Below are positions 3,836-26,724 of a stretch of DNA of 27,036 nt, piece by piece. Both the position numbers and the translations under genes were made by a program. Within the stretch, counting starts at the first letter, position 1; every line of letters starts with the position of its first letter. The DNA is from Cochliopodium minus (Eukaryota; Discosea; Himatismenida; Cochliopodiidae): positions 1-27,036 of the forward strand of contig JAMYWO010000433.1 of assembly GCA_024220525.1 (NCBI GenBank). The letters are read 5' to 3'. Under the pieces are notes generated by a model. That model saw only the letters and a list, made by a program, of their open reading frames with translations, ran no database searches and was not told the origin of the DNA.

Positions 3836-6800
3836 TTAAAAATTACGTTGATTAGGTAAATGTTTGTGTTTTTCTGTGTTCAAAACACTTACAATCATCT
3901 CAACATCCTCCGCATTGACAGACAACTCATCAAGCAACCTCTGTTCGTCCAGACACATGTTCATCTCATAGCAATCGATCAAATGGTTGATGACTTTATT
4001 TCTGGGCAACTTCAAATTAGAACTGATGGTGGCAATGTTGCTCCCCTCAAAAAAAAAAGAAAAAATGTTGTCAGTCTCATTTTTATCGTTAAATTTTTTT
4101 GACATTTTTGGCGGGGTTTTTTCTTTCAAAAAATTTGTTATGACGCAACAAAAGTTTGAATGGTACTTTTGTGCTTTGAAATCGTTTATTTCTTCGATTT
4201 CACTGAAGGAAGTGAGGGTGGTAGGTTTCTTGGTGGCCATCTCCCAGAGGGAGTTCTCGGAGCAGATGAGAAAAGGGGCGATCTTTTGTTCGTCGGAGAT
4301 TCTCTTTCTTTCTTCGTACAAGAGGTTCATGAGTTCGTTCAACTCGTTCGTGTCGTCTTTTTTTTCTGCATCTTTTTTGTTGTCAACATTTTTGTTCAGA
4401 TTTTTTTTGATGACACTTTTTTTCTTAATCTCTTTTTTATTACTGTGATTGTCATTGTTATTGTAACTTTTTTTATTGATATCAACAATGTTATTTTTGT
4501 TTTTATTTAAATTATTATTATTATCATAATTTTGATTGTCACAGTTTTTGTTATTTATAATACAATTTTTAAAATCATTATTATTTTCATTATTATTTTC
4601 ATTATTATTATCATTTTCGTTATTTTGATTGTTGTCACTGTTTTCATTATTATTTTCGTTGTTAGAAGAAGATTCTTTGTTCTTTTTGCTGTTTTTTTTC
4701 TCCAAGTTGTTGTTGTGCTGCTCCAAAAGTAGCTGGAAACGAGGAGTGATCTTAACTTCGAAGCACTCATTCTCGCTCTTGTTCAAAAAGAGCAACGAGT
4801 CTTGAGAAAGGAAGAAAGTGGTCATGCTTATTTTTTTGTCTGTCATGGTATTCTCTTCCAAGATGAATCCTTCTGAAACGAGCATCGTGAACAACTCTTT
4901 CCAGAATTCCAAGGTGTATTCTTTTCCTTGGCTGTAGTACTTGAACTTTTGGTAGTTGTTGGAGGTCACCTTGGCGGACTTGCTTCCTCTGAGGATGTCT
5001 ATCAAAAGACGTGATCCGTAACGTTGACCTGTGTATTTGATAACGGAAAAGAGCATTCTGATTTCTATTTTTTATTTTAGAAATTTACATTTTAAAAAAA
5101 TAATAAAACTAAAAATTAAAAAAATTCATAAAATTAATAAAATTAATAAAATTAAGAATTAAGAAAAATTAATAAAATACAGAAAATTAATAAATTAATA
5201 AATGATTAAATAAATTTAAAGATTATTAAAAGATTGTTTAAAAAAATTTACCTTTACTAAGATCCAGTGTTGGAAGTTCGTTTCCACAGTTATCACAACA
5301 ATTCTTGTCTCCAGAAGGATGATAGATCTCGCCAAAGTAAGGCAACAAAATCTTCCTTCTGCACTCTGTTGTCAAAATATATTTCTTGATACATTTGAAC
5401 CCCTCCTCCTTTCTTTCTTGTTCTCTTTCAGAATGGATGTTTTGAGCAAAGAAATGAGATATTTGAAAATCATTTTCAGTGTAAAGAACGAAACAGTTTG
5501 ATCTCTTTCCATCTCTCCCTGCCCTCCCTGTTTCTTGGAAATAGGATTCTATCGATTGAGGCAGACCATAATGTATGATTGTTCTAATATCTTTTTACAA
5601 AAATAATGTTATAAAAAATTAATGATGAAAAATAAAATTTAAATGAATAAATAAAAAAATAATTGTTCATTAAAAAATGGGTGTTTTTGTTAAAAAAAAA
5701 ATAAGAAATTTACCAGGCTTATCTTTTTTTTTGAATTTTTTTTTTTTTAAAAAATTTTTTTGTTAAAAAGTCTTTAATAAATTTTTTCTTTAAAAATCTT
5801 TCTTACCAATACCCATCCCAAAAGCTACAGTGGCACACAAAACGGTGACTTGATCATTAATGAAGCTGATATGCGCTTGTTTCCTTTGTTCAATGGAAAG
5901 TCTCGCATGATAAGGTAAACAAGAAACCTTTTCTTTGGTGAGGAACTTGGTGATGGATTCTGTTTCATCGACGCGACTACAATAGATGATGGTGGGAAAG
6001 AATTTTCCATCTTCTCTTTTGGAGTGCTTTGTCAGAATTTCGAGCACTGTTTTGAATGGGTTGGTGTCTTTCTTTATTACTGCGTAGTAGTGGTTGGGAC
6101 GGTCGAATGATGATATTGTCACTTTTGGATGTCTCAGTTCGAGATTGTTAATGATGTCTTTCTATTTAAAAAATATTTAAAAATGAAATTAGTTAACAAA
6201 CATTATTAAATGAAAATGAAATAAGTTAACCAATTAACGGATTAATAAATAACATTTTTTAATTATTTTAAAAAATTTGAATTATTTTAAAAAATTTGAA
6301 ATATTTTATTTGAAATAATTTTCGTAGAAATAAAACATGTAAAAATAAATATGTTTTTTTTACTTGTACTTGTTTTGTTGCGGTTGCGGTTAGAGCTATC
6401 ATTGGTAAGCTTGGAATTTCTTTTCTTATTCTGCTTAAGAGATAGTAAGCTTTTCTGAAGTCATGTCCCCATTGGGAGATGCAATGAGCTTCGTCTATGG
6501 CCAAAAGTCCTATGTTATTCGCTTGGTGAATCAATTTCAACTTTTCAATGATGTTAGGTTGTGTAATTTTCTATTTATGAAAGAAAAAATAAAAAATTAA
6601 TTATAAAGTGTAAAATTGAATAAAAGATATAATTATTATACTTAAATGTATCTATTCATTGCATAAAATAATTTTTATTTGAATGAAGAATTTAAAAATA
6701 ATTTAATTTTCCCGCCATAAATTATAAAAATATATAATATTTTTTCAAATTCAATTACCTCTGGTGTGATATATAATATCTGCCATTTATCATTGTATGG

Positions 6801-7450
6801 ATCCAATATCTTGTCCATCTCTGTTTCTTTCATTTTGGAATTCAAATGCACAGCATTTATATTCCTCTCTTGCAATTTGGTCGTTTGATCTTCGATGAGG
6901 GATAGCAATGGACTCACCACAATTGTTTTTTTTTTGCTGATCAAACATGGAAATTGATAAAGCAAACTTTTGCCTTTAATAAAAAAAAAATTTGTAAGAT
7001 ATAAGATGATATGTTGGAAGAAATTCAATAGGATAACAGAATAAAGGATGATGTGAACAATAAAGAAATTTTATTGCTTAATATTTTATGCATTAAAAAT
7101 TATTGGATGAATTATTCAAATAAAGTTCATATATTTACCAAATCCTGTTGAACAACAAACAAAGCTATATCCATTTGAAATATTGAAGGAAATATTCAGA
7201 GGATTATTCAAATTTTTTTTTTTTTTTTTTAAATATTTTACTTGTCCTCGTTTCTTAATAGTGATTGGATCACATCTTCTTGATTTCTTTTGAATGTTGA
7301 ATAGCCAAAATGTTTTTTGAGTAACATCTGCCAGTGTTTTGGTGAATCTTCTTCCTCCTTCAAAATATCATTTTTAAATTCTTCAACTTCAAAAACATTT
7401 GAATTATCAAACAAATCAAATCCATCATCAAAAAAAGTATCGATATTCAT
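3836..7450 (-). CDS. RecQ-family DNA helicase, WRN-type domain order (8 exons)
   Basis: ATP-dependent 3'-5' DNA helicase expected to act in the nucleus in recombination and replication-fork repair. Exons in coding order: 7242-7450, 7139-7164, 6759-6973, 6364-6570, 5807-6161, 5714-5722, 5252-5590, 3836-5064. They total 2589 nt (862 aa) with all phases consistent. Visible motifs: Walker A STGFGKS (about residue 76), motif II DEAH followed by [10 protein letters not shown], motif III LTATAT, GMGIDKPDIR, and motif [12 protein letters not shown]. The RecQ zinc site follows (TTECRRK, then NCCDNCGN). The RQC winged helix contains [16 protein letters not shown]. An Asn/Lys-rich insert lies at about residues 570-690, then an HRDC-like domain (about 695-770) and a C-terminal helix-turn-helix like that of WRN. 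There is no exonuclease domain. The last four domains resemble WRN, but orthology is inferred. Confidence 0.93.
5714..5722 (-). other. 9-nt microexon in the RecQ gene
   Basis: Coding-strand ATAAGCCTG, preceded by an AG acceptor (5723-5724) and followed by the donor GTAAAT (GT at 5712-5713). It receives phase 1 and leaves phase 1. Joining 5807-6161 directly to 5252-5590 is also in frame but gives GMGIDIR. Including this exon gives GMGIDKPDIR, the sequence conserved in RecQ helicases. Confidence 0.88.
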
Positions 7451-7669: not shown

Positions 7670-10600
7670 TTAGGTAAGAATGATAGAATAAACAAACTTG
7701 CAAAACAAATAAGAAATAAAAAGCAAAACCAAATAAAAAGTATACTGAAAAAGACCAGCATTGGAAGCAGAATTAAAAAAACGTTGAAAAAAAGATTCAT
7801 ATCCATCACTATTTCTATAATAGTCAATATAAAGGTGCTTGTTAGGCTTATCGGGAGGGTTTTCAAATGAGGAAGGTAGAGGGAAAAGAGAATCGTAGAA
7901 TTCAAAGAGCAAGTTTTTGGCTTGAGGGGTGTCTGGGTGGCTGTGGTTGAGGTTATCGTTGAGGCAGACGAATTTTTGTTTTTGTCTTCTGATTCCGTCG
8001 AGTTTTTCTTCCAAACCTTTGTCGTCACTGTTTATCATTATAAATGCGACTTCATCAGTTGCTAAAAAAAATGAAATAAAAAATTTTAATTTATATAATT
8101 AAACAAATAATTTTGTTAATAAATAATTTTATTTATAAAAATTGTAAAAAATGATGAAATAAAACATTAAATAAAAATTATTGTTTTAAATTATAATTAA
8201 AAGAAAAAAATGAAAAAAATTTTAAATTATTTAAAATACTACATAAAATTGATAATAAATAATTTTAAATTTTATTTATATGTAAAAAATGATAAATAAT
8301 TTTACTTTCTAATTCATATTTATACAAATTTTTTTGGTTATAATGCTCAAATAGTTTTTTTGCGATCTCAGATTCCTTCCAATTATCAAAGACAATCGAA
8401 GTGTCATTGTCAGAGTTGGAAGTGGTGTAAATGTCATTGACGATTCCTGTTATTTTTTCGTAGTTGCAAGGAAGATCGTAGACATAGGTGCAGCTTGTTT
8501 TGAGTTCGTTGTATTCCAAAACTTTGTCATGGTTTTTATCAATATCATAGAATACTGATTCAAGTGTATGTGTTTGTTTCACGTTCATCATGAAATAATA
8601 ATATCTAAAAAAATATTTAAACAAAATAAAAAATAAAAAATATTGAAAAATATTGAAATAAAATTATTAATAAACAAATAAAATTTAAAAATTTAAAAAT
8701 TAAAACAAAGTAAAATTGGTATTTAAAAAAGGTTTTTAAAAAATAAAATATTAAAAAAAAATTAAAATAATTTAAAAAGTTTTCTTACGAAAATGAGAAC
8801 TGCATATCATTTGATGCTCTAAACTTGTGTGAAGAAGTATTTTCAAATTCTTCAGGAAAGGTGCTGTGCAAATGCTTGATCACACTTTTCTTCATGTAAT
8901 GAGGCATGTGGGCAGGAACTTGTCTTTGCTTCCTTCCATACAATTTATTGTAAATTCTATCGACAAATTTAAGTGAATCCCCAAAAGTGTCCAACAATCT
9001 TCTTTGTTTGAAATTTTTGCTTTTTCTACTTAAATGTAAAGAATTGAAATCAGAATCTTCCAAATTCAAGAGTTTCCTGACATTGTTTTTATTTTTTAGG
9101 TTTAAACTCTCTTCGTTATCATCTTTTTCATCTTTTAAGATTGTATCATCCTTTGCATCATTTTTGATTTCTTCATTTTTCTCATCTTCATTTGCTTGCA
9201 TGTTTCTTTCTTCATCATTTTTGTTGATAAAATTCTCTTCGTTTTTTGGATCTAAAATTTCATTTTCTTCTGCTTTTACTTTATTTTCTTCATTTTTTTC
9301 TCCCAAACTCTTTTGCATATTATTTTTATCATCAATAACGGGAGTTTCTTCGATAGATGTTGGTTTTTCTGTTTCAACAATTTCACCATTTTCATTTTCG
9401 TCTTCTTGGACATTTTCAATTTTTTCTTCTTTTTTTTCTTCATTATTTTCATTTTCTGTTTTCATTATTTGCTCATTTTTATTATCTTGATCAATTTCAG
9501 AATCTACTTTAGTACTCTCCATCTTTCGGTCGGAAAAATGATGTTTGTGGTGCTTGCTTCTTTTTGAACGCCATTGCCCAAGTCTGTTCAAATTGAAAAA
9601 ATTTTCTCCATGAGTTTTTTTCTCAATATCATTTTTATCATCTTTTTCACCTAACAAAAAGTAATAAATTAAAAAGTGAAATAAAGTCATTTAAAAATTT
9701 TCAAACATTAAAATTCAAACATTAAAATTAAAAATTAAAAATTGAAAAATTGAAAAATTAAAAATTAAAAATTGAAAATTAAAAATAATTAATATAAATA
9801 CATCCAAAAAAATACCATTGGAAGTACTGTTATGATTTGTTTCATTTTGGTTGATCTCATTGTTTTCTACTGTAGAATTAGAAGGTTCTTTAGATTCGGG
9901 GTCTAGATATTTTTCGGGAATGTATTTGTTGAATTTTGGATGCAATCGTATATTTTTGTTATAAAAAGAAGGAGGGAGAGTAGGGTACGGAGAATATTCC
10001 ACTTTGGTAGTATTCAGGCTGACAGTAAAGGAAAAAATTTCGGTTGTATTGTCTAAGGCATACTCTATTTGAAAATTGATGTTGTCATCAAATTTGTCTT
10101 TGTAACAAACCAAAACTAAAATCCTATCATCTGAATCCTGAAGAATTTTTGCTGCTCTAAAAAATTTTAAAAAAATAAGAGTTAATAGTAATAAAAATAA
10201 ATAAAAAATGAAATCAAAAAAAAACAAATAAGAGTTAAAAAATAAAAATAAAAAAATTTCAAATAAACAATAAGATTTAAAAAAATTTTTTACCTTATTA
10301 CTTCAGAGTTGTTGTGTGAAGCATCTGTTATTGTGTTATCGCCTACCAATGATGTCAAGTTGAAAATTACAGCGAGATCTCTCACTTCTATGATATCTGT
10401 CTCATTATTTATCAAGAAACTAGGGAGTTCTTTGGTCCTTTCTATCCCACAATCACCTGCATCAAAACTTTAATAATCAACAAAATAAAAGTTAAAAGTT
10501 TTTTAATAAAAATTTTTATTTACCCACATTCTTTATTGTTGCATAGACTGTCACATCCTTTATCTCCCAAAAAATTATTAGGACAACCAGACATACAGTT

Positions 10601-15340: not shown

Positions 15341-16333
15341 TTAGAGAAATAACAAATCTTTTGGGAGAATAGATGTTACATCCAAAACATAGCGAGGTGT
15401 CTCCAATCTAATTTTCATGTCTGAATAATCAAAATTACTTGCGAACAAATATAATTTTTCATCTTTTTTTACTTTGATGGAGTTTGTTGTGAAGATGTAT
15501 TCTAAGTTTGTTTTTTCAGGATGTTTTTTAAAGAAACTAACAGTAGCAACAGTGTCTTCTTGTGAGCTATAACTCCCTTTGTGAATGTACACAAATACTT
15601 TTCCTCTGTTCTCTGGAAAATTTTTAGAAATCAATCCCGTTCCACTGCTGTTGTGACAAAAAAAACTCATTTTTTTTTGAACATCATAATAATATCCATA
15701 TCTTAAACTTTAAGAAATAAATTTTTCGTGATATTTTTTTAATTTAAATATATTTTTTTTTTTTTTACTTGTCTGCATTAAAAGCAAAGTGCTTTTCATT
15801 TTAGGTAAAGGAGTTTAAAAATAAAAATAAAAATCTTTTTCTTACTTCAAAATTGGTATTTTTAAATGCCACCCCAAAATTCAAATCTCTATTCAAAGAA
15901 AATAATTTTTTTTTGAAAATTAAAAAAATAAATTTAAAAAAACTTACTGTGGTAATTTTTCAAGATAAAGAGAGTATAAAAATCCTTCCAGTAGATATTG
16001 TTTAGTAATCGCAGATTTCCAATGAATATTAGCAGTTTTTAATTCTGTCAACATGTATTTATCTTTTTTGTCTAATTTCAATTTTTTATTTAATCTTGAT
16101 TGATTCCATTCTATCAATGTTAAATTGGATAATTGTTTCCAACTTTTATATATTTTGTCTAATGTCTTTATATTCAATCTATTTTTGGCGAATATACTCC
16201 AAAAGATCTCATCTTCTTTTAAAATGAAGAAGAAACTTTTGCAAACCAATGAAATTAGGAACAAATCATCATATTCGAGCTTGGATAGAATCAATCTCCA
16301 TATTTGCTTTTGGAATGTAGTTAATTCATTCAT
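15341..16333 (-). CDS. F-box protein with C-terminal beta-rich domain (270 aa)
   Basis: Exons: 15948-16333, 15846-15888 (43 nt), 15769-15791 (23 nt) and 15341-15701, total 813 nt, all in phase. Residues about 5-50 form an F-box (QKQIWRLILSKLEYDDLFLI, LVCKSF, then DEIFW), which binds Skp1 in SCF ubiquitin ligases. The rest is probably the substrate-binding part. It has a Lys-rich linker, then a region reading NRDLNFGVAFKNTNFEHFAF-type strands and a beta-rich C-terminus (KVFVYIHKG, YIFTTNSIKVKK, KLYLFASNF). I do not recognise that C-terminal domain. The start lies 191 bp from the divergent start of the kelch-F-box-Arf gene, so two F-box genes share a promoter region. Confidence 0.78.
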
Positions 16334-16524: not shown

Positions 16525-19500
16525 ATGAACAGCAAATGGAATGAAATAATAAAGCTTACCCATAATGAGATCATGACGATGCATTGTCCTATCTTGCTCC
16601 ATCACCAAAACAAATATATAATAATTGTAGGGAAAAATAATACTTATCATAACGCATACATCACAGTTGAAGACAATAAAATAGGGGAGAATATCAATTA
16701 TGAAATACAGAAAGAAAATATAAATAATAATCCAATGAATCTTACTGCTGGATCTTCATATTGCATAGATACAAATCAAAAGAGAATATGGATATTTGGA
16801 GGAAAATATGGAAAGAAGGGATTAATTGATAAATTTTGGGAAATCAGATTGGATGAGGAGATTTCTTTCAATTTTATAAGGAAGAAGGATTTATCTCCCA
16901 ATGGAAGAAAAGGAGCAAGCATGTTTTATTATGATGATTTCGTTTATTTGTATGGAGGTATTAGTGGTGATGAATTAAAGATCATTGGAACAATTCACAG
17001 GTGAATTAAATCTTTTTTTTTTTTAATTGCTTTTGAAATCAATCAAATTTTTTTTTTTGGTTGATAAATTTAGATATGATATAAACAAGAAAAAGTGGGA
17101 AAAGTTAGATGTGAACATGCCTGAAAGATCTTATCATTCAACTGTTTTAATCGGGAATATTGGTAAAAAAAAATTAGATTTAAATAAAAATCAAAATTTA
17201 AAATCAAATTTCAAATAAACATTAAATAAAATAAGATATTTTAAATAAACATTAAATTAAAAAATAAACATAAAATAAATTATTTTTTTTTTGATTTTTA
17301 AAAAAGCTTGGACATTTGGAGGTAATAGTCTGAAGGGAGAAGAAATTTCATCTCTTTTGTGGTTTAACATCAAAACAAGAGAATGGGGAGAAATAAATCC
17401 TTCAATGTTCAAGTTGATGAACAAATCAAAATGGCCAACTTCAAGGTAAAAAAAAAAATATTTTAATTTTAAATTTATTTTATTTAATTTACTTTTTCAA
17501 TTTTACTTAAATTTTTCTTTTATTACTTTAAAATTTTAAAAAAAAAGATACAAACATACAATGCAAGCGTACAAAAATACAATTATTATTCATGGTGGGA
17601 TGTCCAAAGGAAAAATTATCGATGAATTTCATGTTTTGGATGTTCTTAACTTTGAATGCTTTCAAATTTCATTTGGAGAAATAAAATTAAAAAGAAAGAA
17701 TCATTCTTCTCTCATTCACAATGATCATTTCTTTATTTTTGGAGGAAAAAAGGAGTATACCAAAGGTGAGATTGTATTTAATATGGGAATACCCATGTTC
17801 GAAATGGATCTAAAATTACTTGAAATAAAGTATGAAGAGAATTCTTTTTCAAGTTTTTGTTTTTCTGAAAAATACTTTTCAGAGTATGGTATTTTGAAAT
17901 TGTATGATCTTTCTTCTTCAAATCAAATTAATTCTCAATCAAACAAAATTGCTTTTTCTCACTTTTCAAACAATGTTTTTGTTGATCATTCTGGAAAATT
18001 ATTTCTTTTTAATTCCGAAAATAATGGTATAGAACCTTTTGAAACGAAATCGAAATTGAAATGTTTGAGAGGATATTCGTCAAAAGATTTCTTTTTTATT
18101 GTTTCTTTGAATGACAAAAACAATAATTCAAGTTTGATACAAATAATAAACAAAAAAGACAAAAAATCATTTGAATTGAAATTCAAAGAAATCGTTCAAC
18201 AAATAGAGTTTACTGATTCTTCTCCTTTCTTTCTTTCTTCAAATGGAAATTTATTTGAAGGTTCTTTCCAAAGCAACAAAACTAACTTTCAGCAAATCAA
18301 AATGGATTTTATTGTTTCTATGATTGGATGTGGTGATCAACATGTTTTGATTTTATCAAAAGAAGGAAAAGTAAAAAAAAAAAAAAATTATTTTTTAATA
18401 AATATTTTATAATTTTAAATGTAATATTAAATAAACATTTTTTCTAAATTTTTTTTTTTAATAACAAAAAAATTAAGGTTTTTGGTATTGGTAAAAATAC
18501 AAATCAACAATTAGGAATGAAAGATGTTGTAGAAATGAAAACTCCAAGTTTTATTGAAAGTTTATTGAATGAAAAAATAATTTCAGTTTCATGTGGTTCA
18601 AATTTTTCAGGAGTTTTAACAAACGATTCAAAAATTTTGATGTTTGGAGACAATTCAAAATATCAAATGGGAGTTTCAAATTCAAAAATGAAAGAAAATG
18701 ACGAAAAGAATGTCATTTTGAAGGATGTTTCTCAACAAATCAAACAAAATATCAAATTTGAATTTTTAAATATTTCTCAAGATTTTGTTTTGACAATTTC
18801 AATCAATGAAAATAACCAAAAAGAAGTTAATTATTGGGGAAATGGAAAAGAATTTGAAACACTTTCTCTTTCTATTTCAAATGAAACAAGTTATGTGAGT
18901 GTTTTGAAAGATAAATTGGTTTTGTTTGTTAGAGACAAGAAAGAAGTGAAAAAGTTGATTACAATGAGTGATTCTCAAGTTGAAATTTCAAAGAGAAAAG
19001 AATTGTTGGGAGATTTTTGTTTTCTTTCATTACCTATTGTCAAATTTATTTTGAAATTTTGTCATTCTTCTGTAAAATATTTTTTTTTTTTTTCACTTTT
19101 ATTAAACTTTTTTGTTACTTTTTTTATTTTTTTTTAATTTTTTTTTGATTTTAAAAAATAGACAATGATTGAATTATCAAAAGTAAATTCTCTTTGGAAC
19201 GAAATAACAAATGATGAAACATATTGGAAAGGTACCTCATTTATCTTCAAATTTATGAATTATATTTATAAAAATATTAGATTTAATCAGAAAAGAGTTG
19301 ACCAAAAATTGTTGGAATTTTTGTTTTGAAGAAAAATATTTATCATTCAAACATTCTTTTCTGAAATTCAGTAAAAGGAACGTAAATATGAAAGGAGTGA
19401 TCAAAGAATTTTTTAATAATGGTAATACAAGATTTATATATTTTTTTAAAAAAGTTTAAAAATAACAAAAAAAACATTTTTAAAAGGTGTCATTAATAGT

Positions 19501-20432
19501 ATTGGAGGCAAAAAATTTTATTGAATATTTTTATTTTTTATTTTTTTATTTTTTTATTTTTTTATTTTATTTATTGTTTTATTTTTTATTTTTATTTTAT
19601 TTTAAATAAAGGAGTTTTTAAAAATTTTGTGAATAAAATGACCCAAAAAAAAATTGAGCAAAAAGAAAATGTTAAGATACTTATGTTGGGATTAGATAAT
19701 TCAGGAAAAACGACTTTAATTTATAATCTTAAAATAGGAGAAGTGATCCAAACAGTTCCCAGTAAACTTTCACTTTTTTTTAATAACTTAAATTTTTATT
19801 AAATTTTTTATTTTTTTTATTTTAGCTATTGGTTTTTGTGTTGAAAGCTGCAAAAAAGGTAGAATTTATTTTTTGTTAATTTTTTTTTTAAATTTTTTTT
19901 TGATTTTTCATCATAATTTGAAATTAATACAGGTCACGTTCATCTCGACAGTTGGGGTTAAATTGTTTTTGAATAGAAATATACAGTATCAAATAAAAAA
20001 AATTTTTTTTTTTTTAGATACAAATGATCGAACCAGAATATTTCCTTTATGGAGGCATTATGCACCAAATTGTAGAGCACTAGTAAAAAAAAAAAATTTC
20101 TTTTTTCTTTGTAAAAAAAATTTTTTAATTAAATTTTTCTTTCATTTAATTAGATATGGGTTCTTGATTCAAGTGACAGAGATAGTTTTATTTCTTCAAG
20201 TGCTTCGTTGAAGAAAATTCTTGATAAATTTGAAAATTTAGTTTATTCTCACATTCTCATTTTAGCCAATAAACAAGATTTAACAAATGCTATGACTGTG
20301 GAAGAGATAAGGGAAAAAATGGTCATGGAAGTTCCTTTGGAGGGAAGAGTTTGGAATGTCTTTGGTTGCGTTGTTACTACTATGGAAGGTGTTCAAAAGG
20401 GATTTGATTGGTTGAATGATTCTTTTAATTAA
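16525..20432 (+). CDS. Kelch-RCC1-F-box-Arf fusion protein, copy A (967 aa)
   Basis: Exons: 16525-17000, 17074-17162, 17307-17445, 17548-18370, 18478-19071, 19162-19231, 19281-19421, 19487-19507, 19612-19761, 19826-19858, 19933-19956, 20018-20082, 20154-20432; 2904 nt with consistent phases. Residues about 80-330 carry five kelch GG motifs (IFGGK, LYGGI, TFGGN, IHGGM, IFGGK). RCC1-like repeats follow ([40 protein letters not shown]), then an F-box (about 690-735, [14 protein letters not shown]...[13 protein letters not shown]). From about 785 there is an Arf domain: GLDNSGKTT (P-loop), VPTIGF (switch I), NKQD and a C-terminal DWLNDSF. Switch II reads WDTNDR instead of WDVGGQ. The join into the Arf exons needs a GC donor at 19508-19509 (or skipping of the 21-nt exon); otherwise translation stops at 19520-19522 and the Arf part would need its own start, for example Met at 19639. 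Confidence 0.75.
17351..19219 (+). repeat. Inverted repeat arm 1 (about 1869 bp, apparently identical to arm 2)
   Basis: Mirrors 21761-23629 on the other strand (coordinates sum to 40980). The predicted proteins in it are identical, and its three complete introns have the same lengths (102, 107 and 90 nt) and, where compared, the same bases. The first mismatches outside it are at 17350 (A/T) and 19220-19221 (CA/TT). It covers the C-terminal kelch, RCC1 and first F-box exons of copy A. Confidence 0.9.
19508..19509 (+). other. Predicted GC splice donor (GC-AG intron) in copy A
   Basis: The sequence is GGAG|GCAAAA. At the matching place in copy B (minus strand, donor at 21466-21467) the sequence is GGAG|GTAAAT. 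GC-AG introns usually have a strong AG|GCAAG-like context, which fits here. If not used, the message reads into a stop 13 nt later. Confidence 0.5.
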
Positions 20433-20559
20433 ACAAAAAAAAATTTCACACTGAAACTAGTATTGTTTCTTGAATTTTCTTTTCAATAAAATATGAAACT
20501 TCCAAAACCTCTTCTTTCTAAAATTTTTTGCTAATTTATTTTTCAAATTGTATTATTTT
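20433..20559. terminator. Convergent 3' region of the two fusion genes
   Basis: 127 bp between the two stop codons. An AATAAA at 20485-20490 (+) and its reverse complement at 20535-20540 (for the - gene) are possible poly(A) signals, so the two 3' UTRs probably overlap. In DNA this AT-rich such hexamers are weak evidence. Confidence 0.35.
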
Positions 20560-23500
20560 TTAATTTTTAAAAGAATCGTTCAACCATTCAAATCCTTTTT
20601 TGATTCCTTCCATAGTAGTTGCAACACTTCCTTGAATGTGCCAGATTCTTCTATTCAAAAGAGGAGCATACATCAAAGCTTGTTCTTTGACTTCTTCGAC
20701 TGTCATTGCTCCCACAACGTCTTGATGGTTTGCAAAAATTAGGACATGTGCATCAATCAAGTCCTTAAAAATATCCATTACATCATTTAGTTCCAAGAAA
20801 GAATCTTCCATCTCTTTCCTTTCATTTGAATTTATAACCCAAATCTTTTGAATTGAAAATATAAAATAAAAAGGATTATTTTAAATAAAGTTACAATTCC
20901 TTTTGTATTTTTCATAAAATGAGACCATATTCCTCTTATTCTGTTGTGTCTTCTAACACCTTTATTTTAGAAAAAAAACATAAATTAAAAAATAATCAAA
21001 AAATAATAAAAATAAAATAATCAAAAAATAGTTATAAAAACAAAATTTTTGATTTTACTCCATGAATGCAAAAAAACATTTTCTGTAAAAAAAAAATTTT
21101 TAATAAAAATTTTAGTTAAATTTAACTATTAACCTTTTTGAATTGTTTTAACATTAAAACCGATAGCTAGCGATTTTAAAAATAAAATTAAACAAAAATA
21201 AAGAATAAAAATTTTTTTTTTTTACTAGGTATTGTATCAACTACTTCTCCAAGATTTAATCCATACATTATTGTGGATTTTCCAACACAATCATAACCCA
21301 ACATTATCATTCTAATTTCATTTTTTGAATGTTCTTTTTTGAAAAAACCAATCTTTTTTGCAAAACTTTTAAGAGTTCCTAAAATAATAAAAATAAAAAT
21401 GAAAAAATAATTAAAAAAATTAATTTAATAAAAATAAAATAAATTAAAAAAGTAAAAAAATATTTACCTCCTAATTCTGGTTTTTTTTTTTAAATTGTTA
21501 TTTTAATTTCCTGATTAAAATTTTGGAATATTTTTACTTCCGTTGACAAAAAGTTTAATTTGATCGTTGATGGGTTCAATTTTTTTGGAAGGATAATATT
21601 TCAAAAATCCCCTTTTCCAAGAAACCTCTTTTGACTCATTTTCACAAAAACTCCAAGTAGAAGGTTTTAATTCCCTGTAAACAATTTCTATTTTTAAAAA
21701 TAATGATTATTTTAATCTCAAATCAAAAAAAAAATTATTAAAAAAAACCTTTCCAATAAATTTCATCATTTGTTATTTCGTTCCAAAGAGAATTTACTTT
21801 TGATAATTCAATCATTGTCTATTTTTTAAAATCAAAAAAAAATTAAAAAAAAATAAAAAAAGTAACAAAAAAGTTTAATAAAAGTGAAAAAAAAAAAAAA
21901 TATTTTACAGAAGAATGACAAAATTTCAAAATAAATTTGACAATAGGTAATGAAAGAAAACAAAAATCTCCCAACAATTCTTTTCTCTTTGAAATTTCAA
22001 CTTGAGAATCACTCATTGTAATCAACTTTTTCACTTCTTTCTTGTCTCTAACAAACAAAACCAATTTATCTTTCAAAACACTCACATAACTTGTTTCATT
22101 TGAAATAGAAAGAGAAAGTGTTTCAAATTCTTTTCCATTTCCCCAATAATTAACTTCTTTTTGGTTATTTTCATTGATTGAAATTGTCAAAACAAAATCT
22201 TGAGAAATATTTAAAAATTCAAATTTGATATTTTGTTTGATTTGTTGAGAAACATCCTTCAAAATGACATTCTTTTCGTCATTTTCTTTCATTTTTGAAT
22301 TTGAAACTCCCATTTGATATTTTGAATTGTCTCCAAACATCAAAATTTTTGAATCGTTTGTTAAAACTCCTGAAAAATTTGAACCACATGAAACTGAAAT
22401 TATTTTTTCATTCAATAAACTTTCAATAAAACTTGGAGTTTTCATTTCTACAACATCTTTCATTCCTAATTGTTGATTTGTATTTTTACCAATACCAAAA
22501 ACCTTAATTTTTTTGTTATTAAAAAAAAAAATTTAGAAAAAATGTTTATTTAATATTACATTTAAAATTATAAAATATTTATTAAAAAATAATTTTTTTT
22601 TTTTTTTACTTTTCCTTCTTTTGATAAAATCAAAACATGTTGATCACCACATCCAATCATAGAAACAATAAAATCCATTTTGATTTGCTGAAAGTTAGTT
22701 TTGTTGCTTTGGAAAGAACCTTCAAATAAATTTCCATTTGAAGAAAGAAAGAAAGGAGAAGAATCAGTAAACTCTATTTGTTGAACGATTTCTTTGAATT
22801 TCAATTCAAATGATTTTTTGTCTTTTTTGTTTATTATTTGTATCAAACTTGAATTATTGTTTTTGTCATTCAAAGAAACAATAAAAAAGAAATCTTTTGA
22901 CGAATATCCTCTCAAACATTTCAATTTCGATTTCGTTTCAAAAGGTTCTATACCATTATTTTCGGAATTAAAAAGAAATAATTTTCCAGAATGATCAACA
23001 AAAACATTGTTTGAAAAGTGAGAAAAAGCAATTTTGTTTGATTGAGAATTAATTTGATTTGAAGAAGAAAGATCATACAATTTCAAAATACCATACTCTG
23101 AAAAGTATTTTTCAGAAAAACAAAAACTTGAAAAAGAATTCTCTTCATACTTTATTTCAAGTAATTTTAGATCCATTTCGAACATGGGTATTCCCATATT
23201 AAATACAATCTCACCTTTGGTATACTCCTTTTTTCCTCCAAAAATAAAGAAATGATCATTGTGAATGAGAGAAGAATGATTCTTTCTTTTTAATTTTATT
23301 TCTCCAAATGAAATTTGAAAGCATTCAAAGTTAAGAACATCCAAAACATGAAATTCATCGATAATTTTTCCTTTGGACATCCCACCATGAATAATAATTG
23401 TATTTTTGTACGCTTGCATTGTATGTTTGTATCTTTTTTTTTAAAATTTTAAAGTAATAAAAGAAAAATTTAAGTAAAATTGAAAAAGTAAATTAAATAA

Positions 23501-24397
23501 AATAAATTTAAAATTAAAATATTTTTTTTTTTACCTTGAAGTTGGCCATTTTGATTTGTTCATCAACTTGAACATTGAAGGATTTATTTCTCCCCATTCT
23601 CTTGTTTTGATGTTAAACCACAAAAGAGAAGAAATTTCTCCTCCCTTCGAACTATTACCACCAAATGCCCAAGCTTTTTTTAAAAAAATTTTAAAATAAC
23701 TTATTTTATGTTTATTTTTTAATTTAATGTTTATTTGAAATTTGATTTTGATTTTTATTTAAATCTAATTTTTTTTTTACCAATATTCCCAATTATAACA
23801 GTTGAATGATAAGATCTTTCAGGCATGTTCACATCTAACTTTTCCCATTTTTTCTTGTTTAAATCATATCTAAATTTATTAACCAAAAAAAAAATTTGAT
23901 GTTGTCAAAAACAATTAAAAAAAAAAAGATTAGATTCACCTGTCAATTGTTCCAATGATCTTTGATTCATTATCATCAGTTCCTCCATACAAATAAACGA
24001 AATGATCATAATAAAACATGCTTGCTCCTTTTCTTTCCTCTGGCCAAAAATCAGTTTTCGGGATGAATTTAAATTCGATTTTATCTCCCATTGATATTTC
24101 TCTGAATTGTGATTTTAATTTTTTTTCATGATACTTATTATTCCCTCCAAATGACCATATCTTATCTTTCTTCTCATTCATACAAAATGCTTGATTTAGA
24201 ACAGAAAGAAGATCACAATCATGTGTTTGCCATTCTCCATCTTTCATCGTATAATATTTTTTATAATCTTCTGATAAGAAATCCCCAGGGAAGAGATGAA
24301 AGGTGGAGTTCCATATCGTGAAGATGGGACGATTCATCTCGTAGATTCTTTTATGATTTGAATTTATGCAAAATTCTTTTTTCCAATTAGCTTCCAT
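20560..24397 (-). CDS. Kelch-RCC1-F-box-Arf fusion protein, copy B (963 aa)
   Basis: Exons: 23940-24397, 23781-23869, 23535-23673, 22610-23432, 21909-22502, 21749-21818, 21538-21687, 21468-21476 (9 nt), 21226-21378, 21134-21166, 21059-21082, 20895-20959, 20560-20844; 2892 nt, every phase consistent. Eight exon lengths equal those of copy A (89, 139, 823, 594, 70, 33, 24, 65). Domain order is the same: kelch, RCC1-like, F-box ([13 protein letters not shown]), Arf. The Arf exon begins GTLKSFAKKIGFFKKE with no start codon upstream of its first strand, so it makes sense only as part of the long message. P-loop is GYDCVGKST and switch I IPTIGF; switch II is WSVRRH rather than WDVGGQ, and the guanine motif is NHQD rather than NKxD, so GTP binding or hydrolysis may be altered. 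I chose the Met at 24397 (MEANWKK) by alignment with copy A (MNSKWNE); an in-frame Met lies six codons upstream. Confidence 0.75.
21468..21476 (-). other. 9-nt microexon linking F-box and Arf parts of copy B
   Basis: Coding-strand AATTAGGAG, with acceptor CCAG and donor GTAAAT. It receives phase 1 (A of the exon ending at 21538) and leaves phase 1, giving K-L-G-G at the join. The alternative reading without it ends in a stop soon after 21538. Confidence 0.55.
21761..23629 (-). repeat. Inverted repeat arm 2 (about 1869 bp)
   Basis: Reverse-complement partner of 17351-19219. It covers the same exons and introns of copy B. Outside it both flanks remain recognisably homologous but carry many substitutions. 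Confidence 0.9.
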
Positions 24398-24532: not shown

Positions 24533-26724
24533 TCACTTCTCCAAGATCAATTCATCCAACTGTATTTTCATGTTTTTATCATTCAAAAGATTTTTGACAT
24601 TAGTAGCAGAAGGACGTTCTCTGGGTTCATAAGAAACCTTGGATGATTTAAAATGAAAAAATAAAAAATAAAAAATAAAAAATAAAAAATAAAAAATAAA
24701 AAATAAAAAATAAAAAATAAAAAATAAAAAATAAAAATAAATGGAAAAAAAGGAAAAAAAATGATTACCATGTTTTTAATAAGAGATATGAAAAGATAAG
24801 GACATTTGTGTTTATCTGGAGAAGGAAAAGAAGGGATCATCTCTTTCTTTGAAAACTTCTCGAGAATTTCTGCCATGAACTGCAAGTTGACGAGATGGAA
24901 AGGGTTTTGTTCAATGTAAACTTCTATATACAAAAGACCCAAAGAATAAATGTCTATTGACTCGTTATACTTTGGACTTGTGAACATTTCCTTTTGAAAA
25001 AATAATAAAATTAAAAATGATTGTTGAGAAGGAAAAAATAAAATTATAAAAAAATTTTTTTTTTTTTTTTTTTTTACAGGGGCCATATAAATTATTGTTC
25101 CCATATCTTGAGTCATTGTGGTTGCACAAATTCTTGAAACACCAAAATCTTTTTTTTTTATTAAAAAAAATTTAAGAAAATAATTAAATTGAAAATAAAT
25201 AAGAAATATTAAAAAAAAGAATATTTAATTATAATAAAATTTTTTATTTAAAAAAACAAAATAAAAAAAAAATGTGTATAAAAATATTTCATATAAAAAA
25301 ATATTTCATCTAAAAAAATGTTTTTTTTACCTGATAATTTACAAACACCATTCTTATTTAACAAAATATTTGATGGTTTTAAATCCCTGTGTATAATGGG
25401 AGGATCGAAAGAATGAAGGTACTCCAGAGCATTGGCGATTTGGTAACAAATATCAAACTTATTTTTAGGAGTGAGTCCGTTTCCAATCATTTTTTCCAAG
25501 TCAATGTCCATCTTCTCTGTGATCAATCTAAAAAATAAAAAAAATTAAATAAAAAAAAATCTTATATTAAATAAAATAAGAAAAATAATTTAAAAATAAC
25601 AATACAATTAAATAAAAGTAAAATTTTTTTACAATACTTCTCTTCCATAAACACATATTCCCAAAGTTTTGAGAACATTTTCGTTTTTTAGAGTGCACAT
25701 TAACTTTATTTCTCTCAAGAACTCCGAAAAATCACTTTCTCTCATCTGTAAAATTGATTTGGCAGCGACTTGCTTGCTCTTATAACGGGCATTTCTTTTT
25801 TGGTAAAAAAAATGTAGAATAAAAGATTAAGAAAATAAAATAATAATTAATAAAAAATAAAATGAATGAAAAAAAAATAAATGTTTAAAAGCAAAAAAAT
25901 ATATTTAAAACGAAGAAAAAATAAAAATAAAAATAAAAAATTACCTAACTACTGCTTGTCCACCTGATCCTATTAGATCTCCCAAAATAATATCCTTTTG
26001 ATCAATTTTAGGGATAGATTCATCTTTAAAAATGAATTCGAGATTGTTTTGTATGGAATTCACCTCGTAATTGGGCAAGGTGATGTAGGATTGGTGTTTT
26101 GGTTTCCATTTTTTGGCGAAGAAAGATGTCAAAATGATGACGAAGATTACAAACACCAAAAACCCCACGATGGAGAATACAATTATTTGTAATAAATTGA
26201 AAAATGGCCCTTTATAAACAAATAAACTAGACCCTTCACAATTTTCGTTTAAAACTGTTGCAAAAATTTAAATTAATGAAAATGCAAAATTAAAATAATA
26301 ATTAATAAGATTAAAATAAAAATAAAAATATAAATGAAATGAAAATAAAATAAAATAAAATAATATAATATAATAAAAATATTTATAAAAATTTATTATA
26401 AAAATCAATAAAATAAATTTTTTAAAAAAATAAAAAAATAATCGATATAATAAAAAAATTACCAAAGAAATTAGAGTTATTTTTTTGTAGATATAATTTT
26501 TTGCTTTTTTCTAGTTGAGAATTTTGAGTGAGGACGTATAAATAATCATCTTTGGTTACCACTATGTCTACAACATATTCGTCAGAAGATTGAAAGAACT
26601 GAGAAAGTCTATCATTTATACTTTCATCAAACTGAGAGTCGGTGAGATTTAATGCAGCCAAATTTGTTATTATGAGATCCGAAATCCTTTTTTAAAATTA
26701 TAAAATGAAAATAAAAATAAAAAT

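Follow-up and report, generated by a model that had tools for sequence, protein, structure and literature searches.

The stretch of DNA analysed, referred to as the window, is a contig of 27,036 nucleotides from Cochliopodium minus (GenBank assembly GCA_024220525.1, contig JAMYWO010000433.1), numbered C423 in a eukaryotic assembly whose 598 contigs total 44.65 Mb. Two paralogous genes, copy A and copy B, lie here as a convergent pair: A occupies positions 16525–20432 of the plus strand and B positions 24397–20563 of the minus strand, with 130 bases between them. Each gene is modelled as 12 exons which, when spliced, give one frame of 960 amino acids with no internal stops. The predicted proteins consist of kelch repeats, RCC1-like repeats, an F-box and, at the C-terminus, a domain of the Arf GTPase family. 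As explained below, each gene very probably encodes a single polypeptide, and this product is likely to be a substrate receptor of a Skp1–cullin–F-box (SCF) ubiquitin ligase.

Both proteins can be divided into four regions using Pfam: kelch at residues ~28–303, RCC1-like repeats at ~480–635, an F-box-like match within 694–733 and the Arf domain, which comes last and comprises residues 786–958 in A and 789–957 in B. The Arf domain is matched by PF00025 with E-values of 4.6e-47 (A) and 1.1e-42 (B), both above the 22.3-bit cut-off. The kelch and RCC1-repeat models are also above their cut-offs in both proteins, and kelch constitutes a separate, putative substrate-binding domain. The model for the whole RCC1-like domain (RLD) falls below its cut-off, with 137 of 363 model positions matched. 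At E ≤ 1, the Pfam families listed for the two proteins include neither RING nor B-box.

The identity of the F-box is best seen when A and B are taken together with two further copies from the same genome, C and D, which are described below. The Pfam F-box-like model matches all four copies at E ≤ 10 (best, 1.5e-9), and the F-box and Elongin_A models match two of the four each. A profile built from the four sequences matches 29 PDB sequences at E ≤ 10. The top match (E 4e-7) is labelled only “Expressed sequence C85627” and shares its entries with the next two, which are F-box and WD-40 domain proteins 19 (7.5e-7) and 21 (1.5e-6); these are followed by FBXL5, FBXW12 and FBXO4. Six complex-I subunit sequences at E 0.17–0.27 in the same search look like chance matches. 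With F-box-like matches in every copy and solved F-box proteins matched by the profile (best named E 7.5e-7), the F-box called in the initial annotation of this DNA is supported.

That annotation had proposed a single reading frame per gene, based on 13 exons joining in phase and eight exon lengths that agree between the copies. The single frame was recovered in both genes. The phases are equal at 11 of 11 introns, the number of exons being 12 rather than 13, and eight of the 12 exon lengths are indeed the same (89, 139, 823, 594, 70, 33, 24 and 65 bases). All 22 introns of A and B are GT-AG; their A+T content is 90.2–90.3%, and that of the examined stretches is 74–76%. Anaeramoeba ignava likewise has A+T-rich introns, at 91.86%, but the genome value of 80.65% A+T given for Anaeramoeba (PMC11550330) is different from that of these stretches. 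By itself, phase agreement is weak proof of one gene, because there is freedom in picking GT and AG sites, and those of A and B were picked during modelling. Similarly, the equal exon lengths weigh less than they seem to, because an identical tract of 1,869 bp takes in exons 4 and 5, introns 3–5 and the greater part of exons 3 and 6. With the core largely one identical tract and the sites open to choice, phases and exon lengths were dropped as the only proof of a fusion. The informative agreement between A and B is instead in the diverged tail, where the phases at introns 6–11 are equal, three short Arf exons have the same lengths and amino acid identity is 45%.

The identical tract is a perfect inverted repeat with one arm in each gene, and it includes introns 3–5 (Table 1). 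From the repeat leftward to ~16910, there are 3–11 mismatches per block of 72–100 aligned bases. Past ~16910, and to the right of 19219, this rises to 25–53 mismatches per block, with 12 of 62 in the last short block. The proteins follow the same pattern: identity between A and B is 36% in the N-tip, 84% in the left flank, 99.8% in the core, 39% in the linker and 45% in the Arf domain. Recent gene conversion of the core would be the simplest reading of the repeat; an assembly artefact still has to be allowed for.

Support for the fusion that weighs more than phase came from copies C and D, which were found by searching the genome with the F-box–Arf part of B. In copy C (contig C48, locus L038), tblastn places kelch, RCC1, F-box and Arf in this order on a single strand, and identity outside the Arf part is 27–42%. 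In copy D (contig C243, locus L039), it places an F-box and then an Arf domain, with no match to kelch or RCC1 in the D region. From the F-box to the end, both copies read without a stop or frameshift, one donor having been re-chosen in the model of D. In addition, the exon that carries the second half of the F-box extends, in both C and D, into a stretch that by eye resembles the N-terminus of an Arf protein. This stretch is ...TGFFSSIKSFFTTKAGLFKF in C (including TGFFSSIKSFF) and ...EGFFGRLTSKI in D, to be compared with MGIFGRLFNQ and MGIFFKFFSS in stand-alone ARFs. A coincidental joining is unlikely, because one more locus keeps the four-domain order (C) and another keeps F-box then Arf (D).

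The arrangement was also looked for around other Arf genes. In 20 regions picked non-randomly from the Arf hit list, covering a minority of the hits, a tblastn search with A and B as queries detected an F-box upstream of Arf in two, those on C48 and C243. The profile of A–D found no F-box in the remaining 18 (best E 0.65), C48 and C243 matching it by construction. A candidate fifth copy, known by its match coordinates only, has an F-box at C23:23676–23834 and an Arf domain at C23:24647–24871 on one strand. Against viral contigs, the four-sequence alignment gave 54 pattern matches and no relative.

Further support came from a search for start codons that a separate Arf gene could use. Reading upstream from the Arf exon, a stop precedes any ATG in all four copies. 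The region separating the F-box exon from the Arf exon was then tested for a single additional exon that could precede the chosen acceptor. In A and B this region is free of ATG; in D it holds no ATG exon in phase, whereas in C it allows one, which is 11 codons long. For B, the Arf part had been said to have no start before its first strand, and this is borne out: its first methionines, 798 and 800, lie within that strand. Copy A differs, as its Arf exon encodes a methionine (Met 787) that precedes both the first strand and the P-loop.

Table 1. Exons of copies A and B and arms of the inverted repeat, in window coordinates
Feature	Positions	Strand	Content	Basis
A exon 1	16525–17000	+	diverged N-tip, first kelch repeats	gene model, Pfam kelch
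A exon 2	17074–17162	+	kelch	gene model
A exon 3	17307–17445	+	kelch	gene model
A exon 4	17548–18370	+	kelch to RCC1-like	gene model, Pfam
A exon 5	18478–19071	+	RCC1-like repeats, F-box first half	gene model, Pfam
A exon 6	19162–19231	+	F-box second half	gene model, Pfam, PDB profile search
A exon 7	19281–19421	+	linker after F-box	gene model
A exon 8	19612–19761	+	Arf N-terminal part, P-loop GLDNSGKTT	gene model, Pfam
A exon 9	19826–19858	+	Arf switch I	gene model
A exon 10	19933–19956	+	Arf strand ahead of switch II	gene model
A exon 11	20018–20082	+	Arf switch II, degenerate	gene model
A exon 12	20154–20432	+	Arf, NKQD, through stop	gene model
B exon 1	23940–24397	-	diverged N-tip, first kelch repeats	gene model, Pfam
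B exon 2	23781–23869	-		gene model
B exon 3	23535–23673	-		gene model
B exon 4	22610–23432	-	kelch to RCC1-like	gene model, Pfam
B exon 5	21909–22502	-	RCC1-like, F-box first half	gene model, Pfam
B exon 6	21749–21818	-	F-box second half	gene model, Pfam
B exon 7	21538–21687	-	linker after F-box	gene model
B exon 8	21226–21378	-	Arf N-terminal part with P-loop GYDCVGKST, first strand not preceded by Met	gene model
B exon 9	21134–21166	-	Arf switch I	gene model
B exon 10	21059–21082	-		gene model
B exon 11	20895–20959	-	switch II, degenerate	gene model
B exon 12	20563–20844	-	Arf, NHQD, through stop	gene model
Left repeat arm	17351–19219	+	most of A core	mismatch profile
Right repeat arm	21761–23629	-	most of B core	

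The four fused Arf modules have departed from ARF1 to different degrees. Identity to the ARF1 of the same genome is 76% for C, 42% for A, 43% for B and 41% for D. The P-loop, GxxxxGK[S/T], is intact in A, B and C; that of D reads GRKS and lacks the P-loop lysine. The NKxD motif is NKQD in A and C, NHQD in B and HKIK in D. Switch II, which is DVGGQ in ARF1, reads DTNDR in A, SVRRH in B, DVGGP in C and DVGIE in D. In human ARF1, the equivalent of the final glutamine is Gln71, which is required for hydrolysis driven by a GTPase-activating protein. This DxGGQ glutamine is present in none of the four fused modules, but 15 of the 21 remaining Arf rows used for the tree have it, the rows being assembled from tblastn pieces in which some letters may be intronic; four duplicates were dropped from this set, as were two partial rows (L054 and L057) that do have the glutamine. 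The Met-Gly start used for myristoylation is absent as the Arf part is internal, and the glycine that is likely to be its equivalent follows a threonine in C and a glutamate in D. Because the catalytic glutamine is absent from all four, a docking or membrane module seems likelier than a working switch. The proposal that the ligase is controlled by its built-in GTPase is weakened by this loss, together with the altered nucleotide motifs of B and D; targeting or docking through the module, the other half of the same proposal, may still apply.

Other ARF genes of the genome were also noted. At L048:7561–8364 there is an ARF1-like gene with an Arf exon that has no Met-Gly start, a P-loop reading GRTT and the switch II sequence DVGGP, as in C. 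ARF1 copies without introns are present on C90 and C127 with equal scores (L001 and L002), and an intron-bearing ARF1 (L041, on C45) encodes a protein 100% identical to that of C90. The intronless copies are possibly retrocopies.

Kelch-F-box proteins are SCF substrate receptors. A and B resemble them in having a kelch propeller and an F-box, and are unlike them in that the F-box is internal, RCC1-like repeats lie between the two and an Arf tail is added. Fusions of F-box and Arf are themselves a known type. In a set of over 2,000 sequences of the ARF family, Vargova et al. 2021 (PMC8358228) counted 75 proteins with multiple domains, and they report that some ARF-family proteins carry a BTB or F-box domain. 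The initial annotation knew of no described F-box–Arf fusion, a claim that these proteins overturn; its comparison with TRIM23 is one that the same paper draws. Like A and B, the proteins of that study have an F-box and an ARF domain in one chain, which is viewed there as recruitment into ubiquitin-dependent circuits. They differ in that the excerpted text gives neither species nor domain order, and “RCC1” and “kelch” do not occur in the main text. The order kelch-RCC1-F-box-Arf was not found in the literature searched on the fusion, which does not prove its absence.

Two more proteins bear comparison. TRIM23 (ARD1) is like A and B in that an N-terminal E3-ligase module and a C-terminal ARF domain are in one chain. 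However, its E3 module is of the RING/B-box/coiled-coil type, whereas A and B have an F-box, and its ARF domain is described as cycling GTP (PMC5794181), whereas the modules here lack the catalytic glutamine. HERC1 is similar in that a ubiquitin ligase with RCC1-like domains and ARF belong to one pathway (PMC6692442), but it is a HECT enzyme and acts on ARF in trans.

Considering these data, the following mechanism is proposed. Each gene would produce one protein, which probably functions as an SCF receptor. Here, the kelch propeller, perhaps with a partial RCC1-like propeller, would read the substrate and the F-box would bind to Skp1. The C-terminal Arf module would derive from a duplicate of ARF that has lost normal cycling, and would tether the receptor to a membrane or to an Arf effector. 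The module may be a GTP-locked Arf in copies that retain the nucleotide pocket (C and probably A); in those that do not (D and perhaps B), it may be a protein-binding fold that is independent of nucleotide. That the Arf part is a non-cycling docking module is put forward tentatively, at slightly less than even odds, and the explanation as a whole, an SCF receptor with such a module, is about as likely to be right as wrong. The genome has Skp1 family matches at six places and a very large F-box family, with at least 150 members above the cut-off (150 of 469 candidates scored). Also in favour of the proposal, the Arf parts of A and B differ by 0.48 nonsynonymous (dN) and 1.58 synonymous (dS) substitutions per site, a ratio of ~0.3.

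Several observations weigh against this interpretation. In the whole A and B proteins the F-box match is below cut-off (E 0.16–0.17), as is the F-box-like match when the F-box-linker piece of A is taken alone (E 0.016). The model of C is spliced only from the F-box exon on, its kelch and RCC1 parts being tblastn pieces. D needs an unseen upstream exon, because a stop is met just two codons before the modelled exon and no in-frame methionine occurs ahead of one within the F-box. Loss of the glutamine is not unique to fused Arfs, as four of the 21 other rows have a different letter and two have a gap. When the N-terminal stretch of the Arf part was tested for amphipathic helix character, all four fused copies were negative: the hydrophobic moment was matched in 1296 (A), 330 (B), 882 (C) and 1776 (D) of 2,000 shuffles. 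Of four stand-alone Arfs, one, on C356, was positive (8 of 2,000). Membrane insertion is without direct support because these helix tests are negative. The dS between the Arf parts of A and B is close to saturation, and no dS could be obtained for the N-tip or the linker. Finally, the Arf tree joins A and B as sisters (100/99), leaves the placement of C and D unsettled and does not unite A–D, nor is a clade of A–D rejected (approximately unbiased (AU) test, p = 0.147; 0.23 for A–C and 0.273 for A, B and D). The tree thus does not demonstrate a single ancestral fusion.

The leading alternative is that the Arf domain is a functional switch like that of TRIM23, binding and hydrolysing GTP, and that its cycle toggles the ligase or its location. 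A and C retain the P-loop lysine and NKxD, the Arf part of C is close to ARF1, and E3 activity is linked with GTP cycling in TRIM23 (PMC5794181). This alternative is nevertheless unlikely, given a catalytic glutamine that is missing from every copy, a P-loop without its lysine in D and an altered NKxD in B and D. Less likely again is a role for the RCC1-like propeller as an in-cis nucleotide-release factor for the Arf domain, by analogy with what was proposed for the RLDs of HERC1 acting on ARF: binding of ARF1 is reported for RLD2, and a possible release of GDP from ARF proteins for RLD1 (PMC6692442). The RCC1-like repeats of A, B and C do lie upstream of the F-box and Arf, but the below-cut-off RLD match and the missing RCC1 match in the D region speak against this. 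A little more doubtful still is the view that A–D are decaying duplicates whose Arf tails are functionless remnants. Motifs are lost in A, B and D, and the N-tips and tails have strongly diverged; against this, A and B, as well as C and D from the F-box to the end, are free of stops and frameshifts, the Arf dN/dS is ~0.3 and C has kept its 76% identity to ARF1. It is very improbable that a kelch-RCC1-F-box gene and an adjacent Arf gene were joined in error: Met 787 of A, the 11-codon exon allowed by the gap in C and the short intergenic distance between A and B would permit it, but it is weakened by the same arrangement at four loci, by B and D having no readable start ahead of the Arf strand and by the F-box exons of C and D that run into an Arf-like N-terminus.

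The remainder of the window contains other genes. An open reading frame at 15944–16333 (minus strand), adjoining copy A, has a Pfam F-box match (E 6.7e-5) and no Arf match within it. Protein kinase pieces adjoin copy B at 24583–25526 (minus strand). Farther away, pieces of a RecQ-like helicase with DEAD, Helicase_C, RQC and HRDC matches lie at 3836–7028 (minus strand), and a Stealth CR3 match (E 1.2e-14) is at 8785–9690 (minus strand).

If gene conversion produced the inverted repeat, the core of the two paralogues is being homogenised and the two end modules are left free to change. A separate idea, offered as a long shot, is that the pair is a module-shuffling cassette of two genes: recombination between the arms, which flank the two diverged Arf tails, would invert 19220–21760 and give each N-tip the other Arf tail. 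This would create new pairings of N-tip and address module, with GTPase-dead Arf domains serving as interchangeable address tags for an SCF receptor.

Provided that the predicted proteins are produced, A–D are a graded series of ARF modules that runs from C, which is 76% identical to ARF1, to D with its broken P-loop, and each is joined to an F-box part. In A, B and C, an RCC1-like domain is added in the same chain. Such a series would allow a test of whether ARF folds can act as fixed address tags for degradation, apart from their role as switches.

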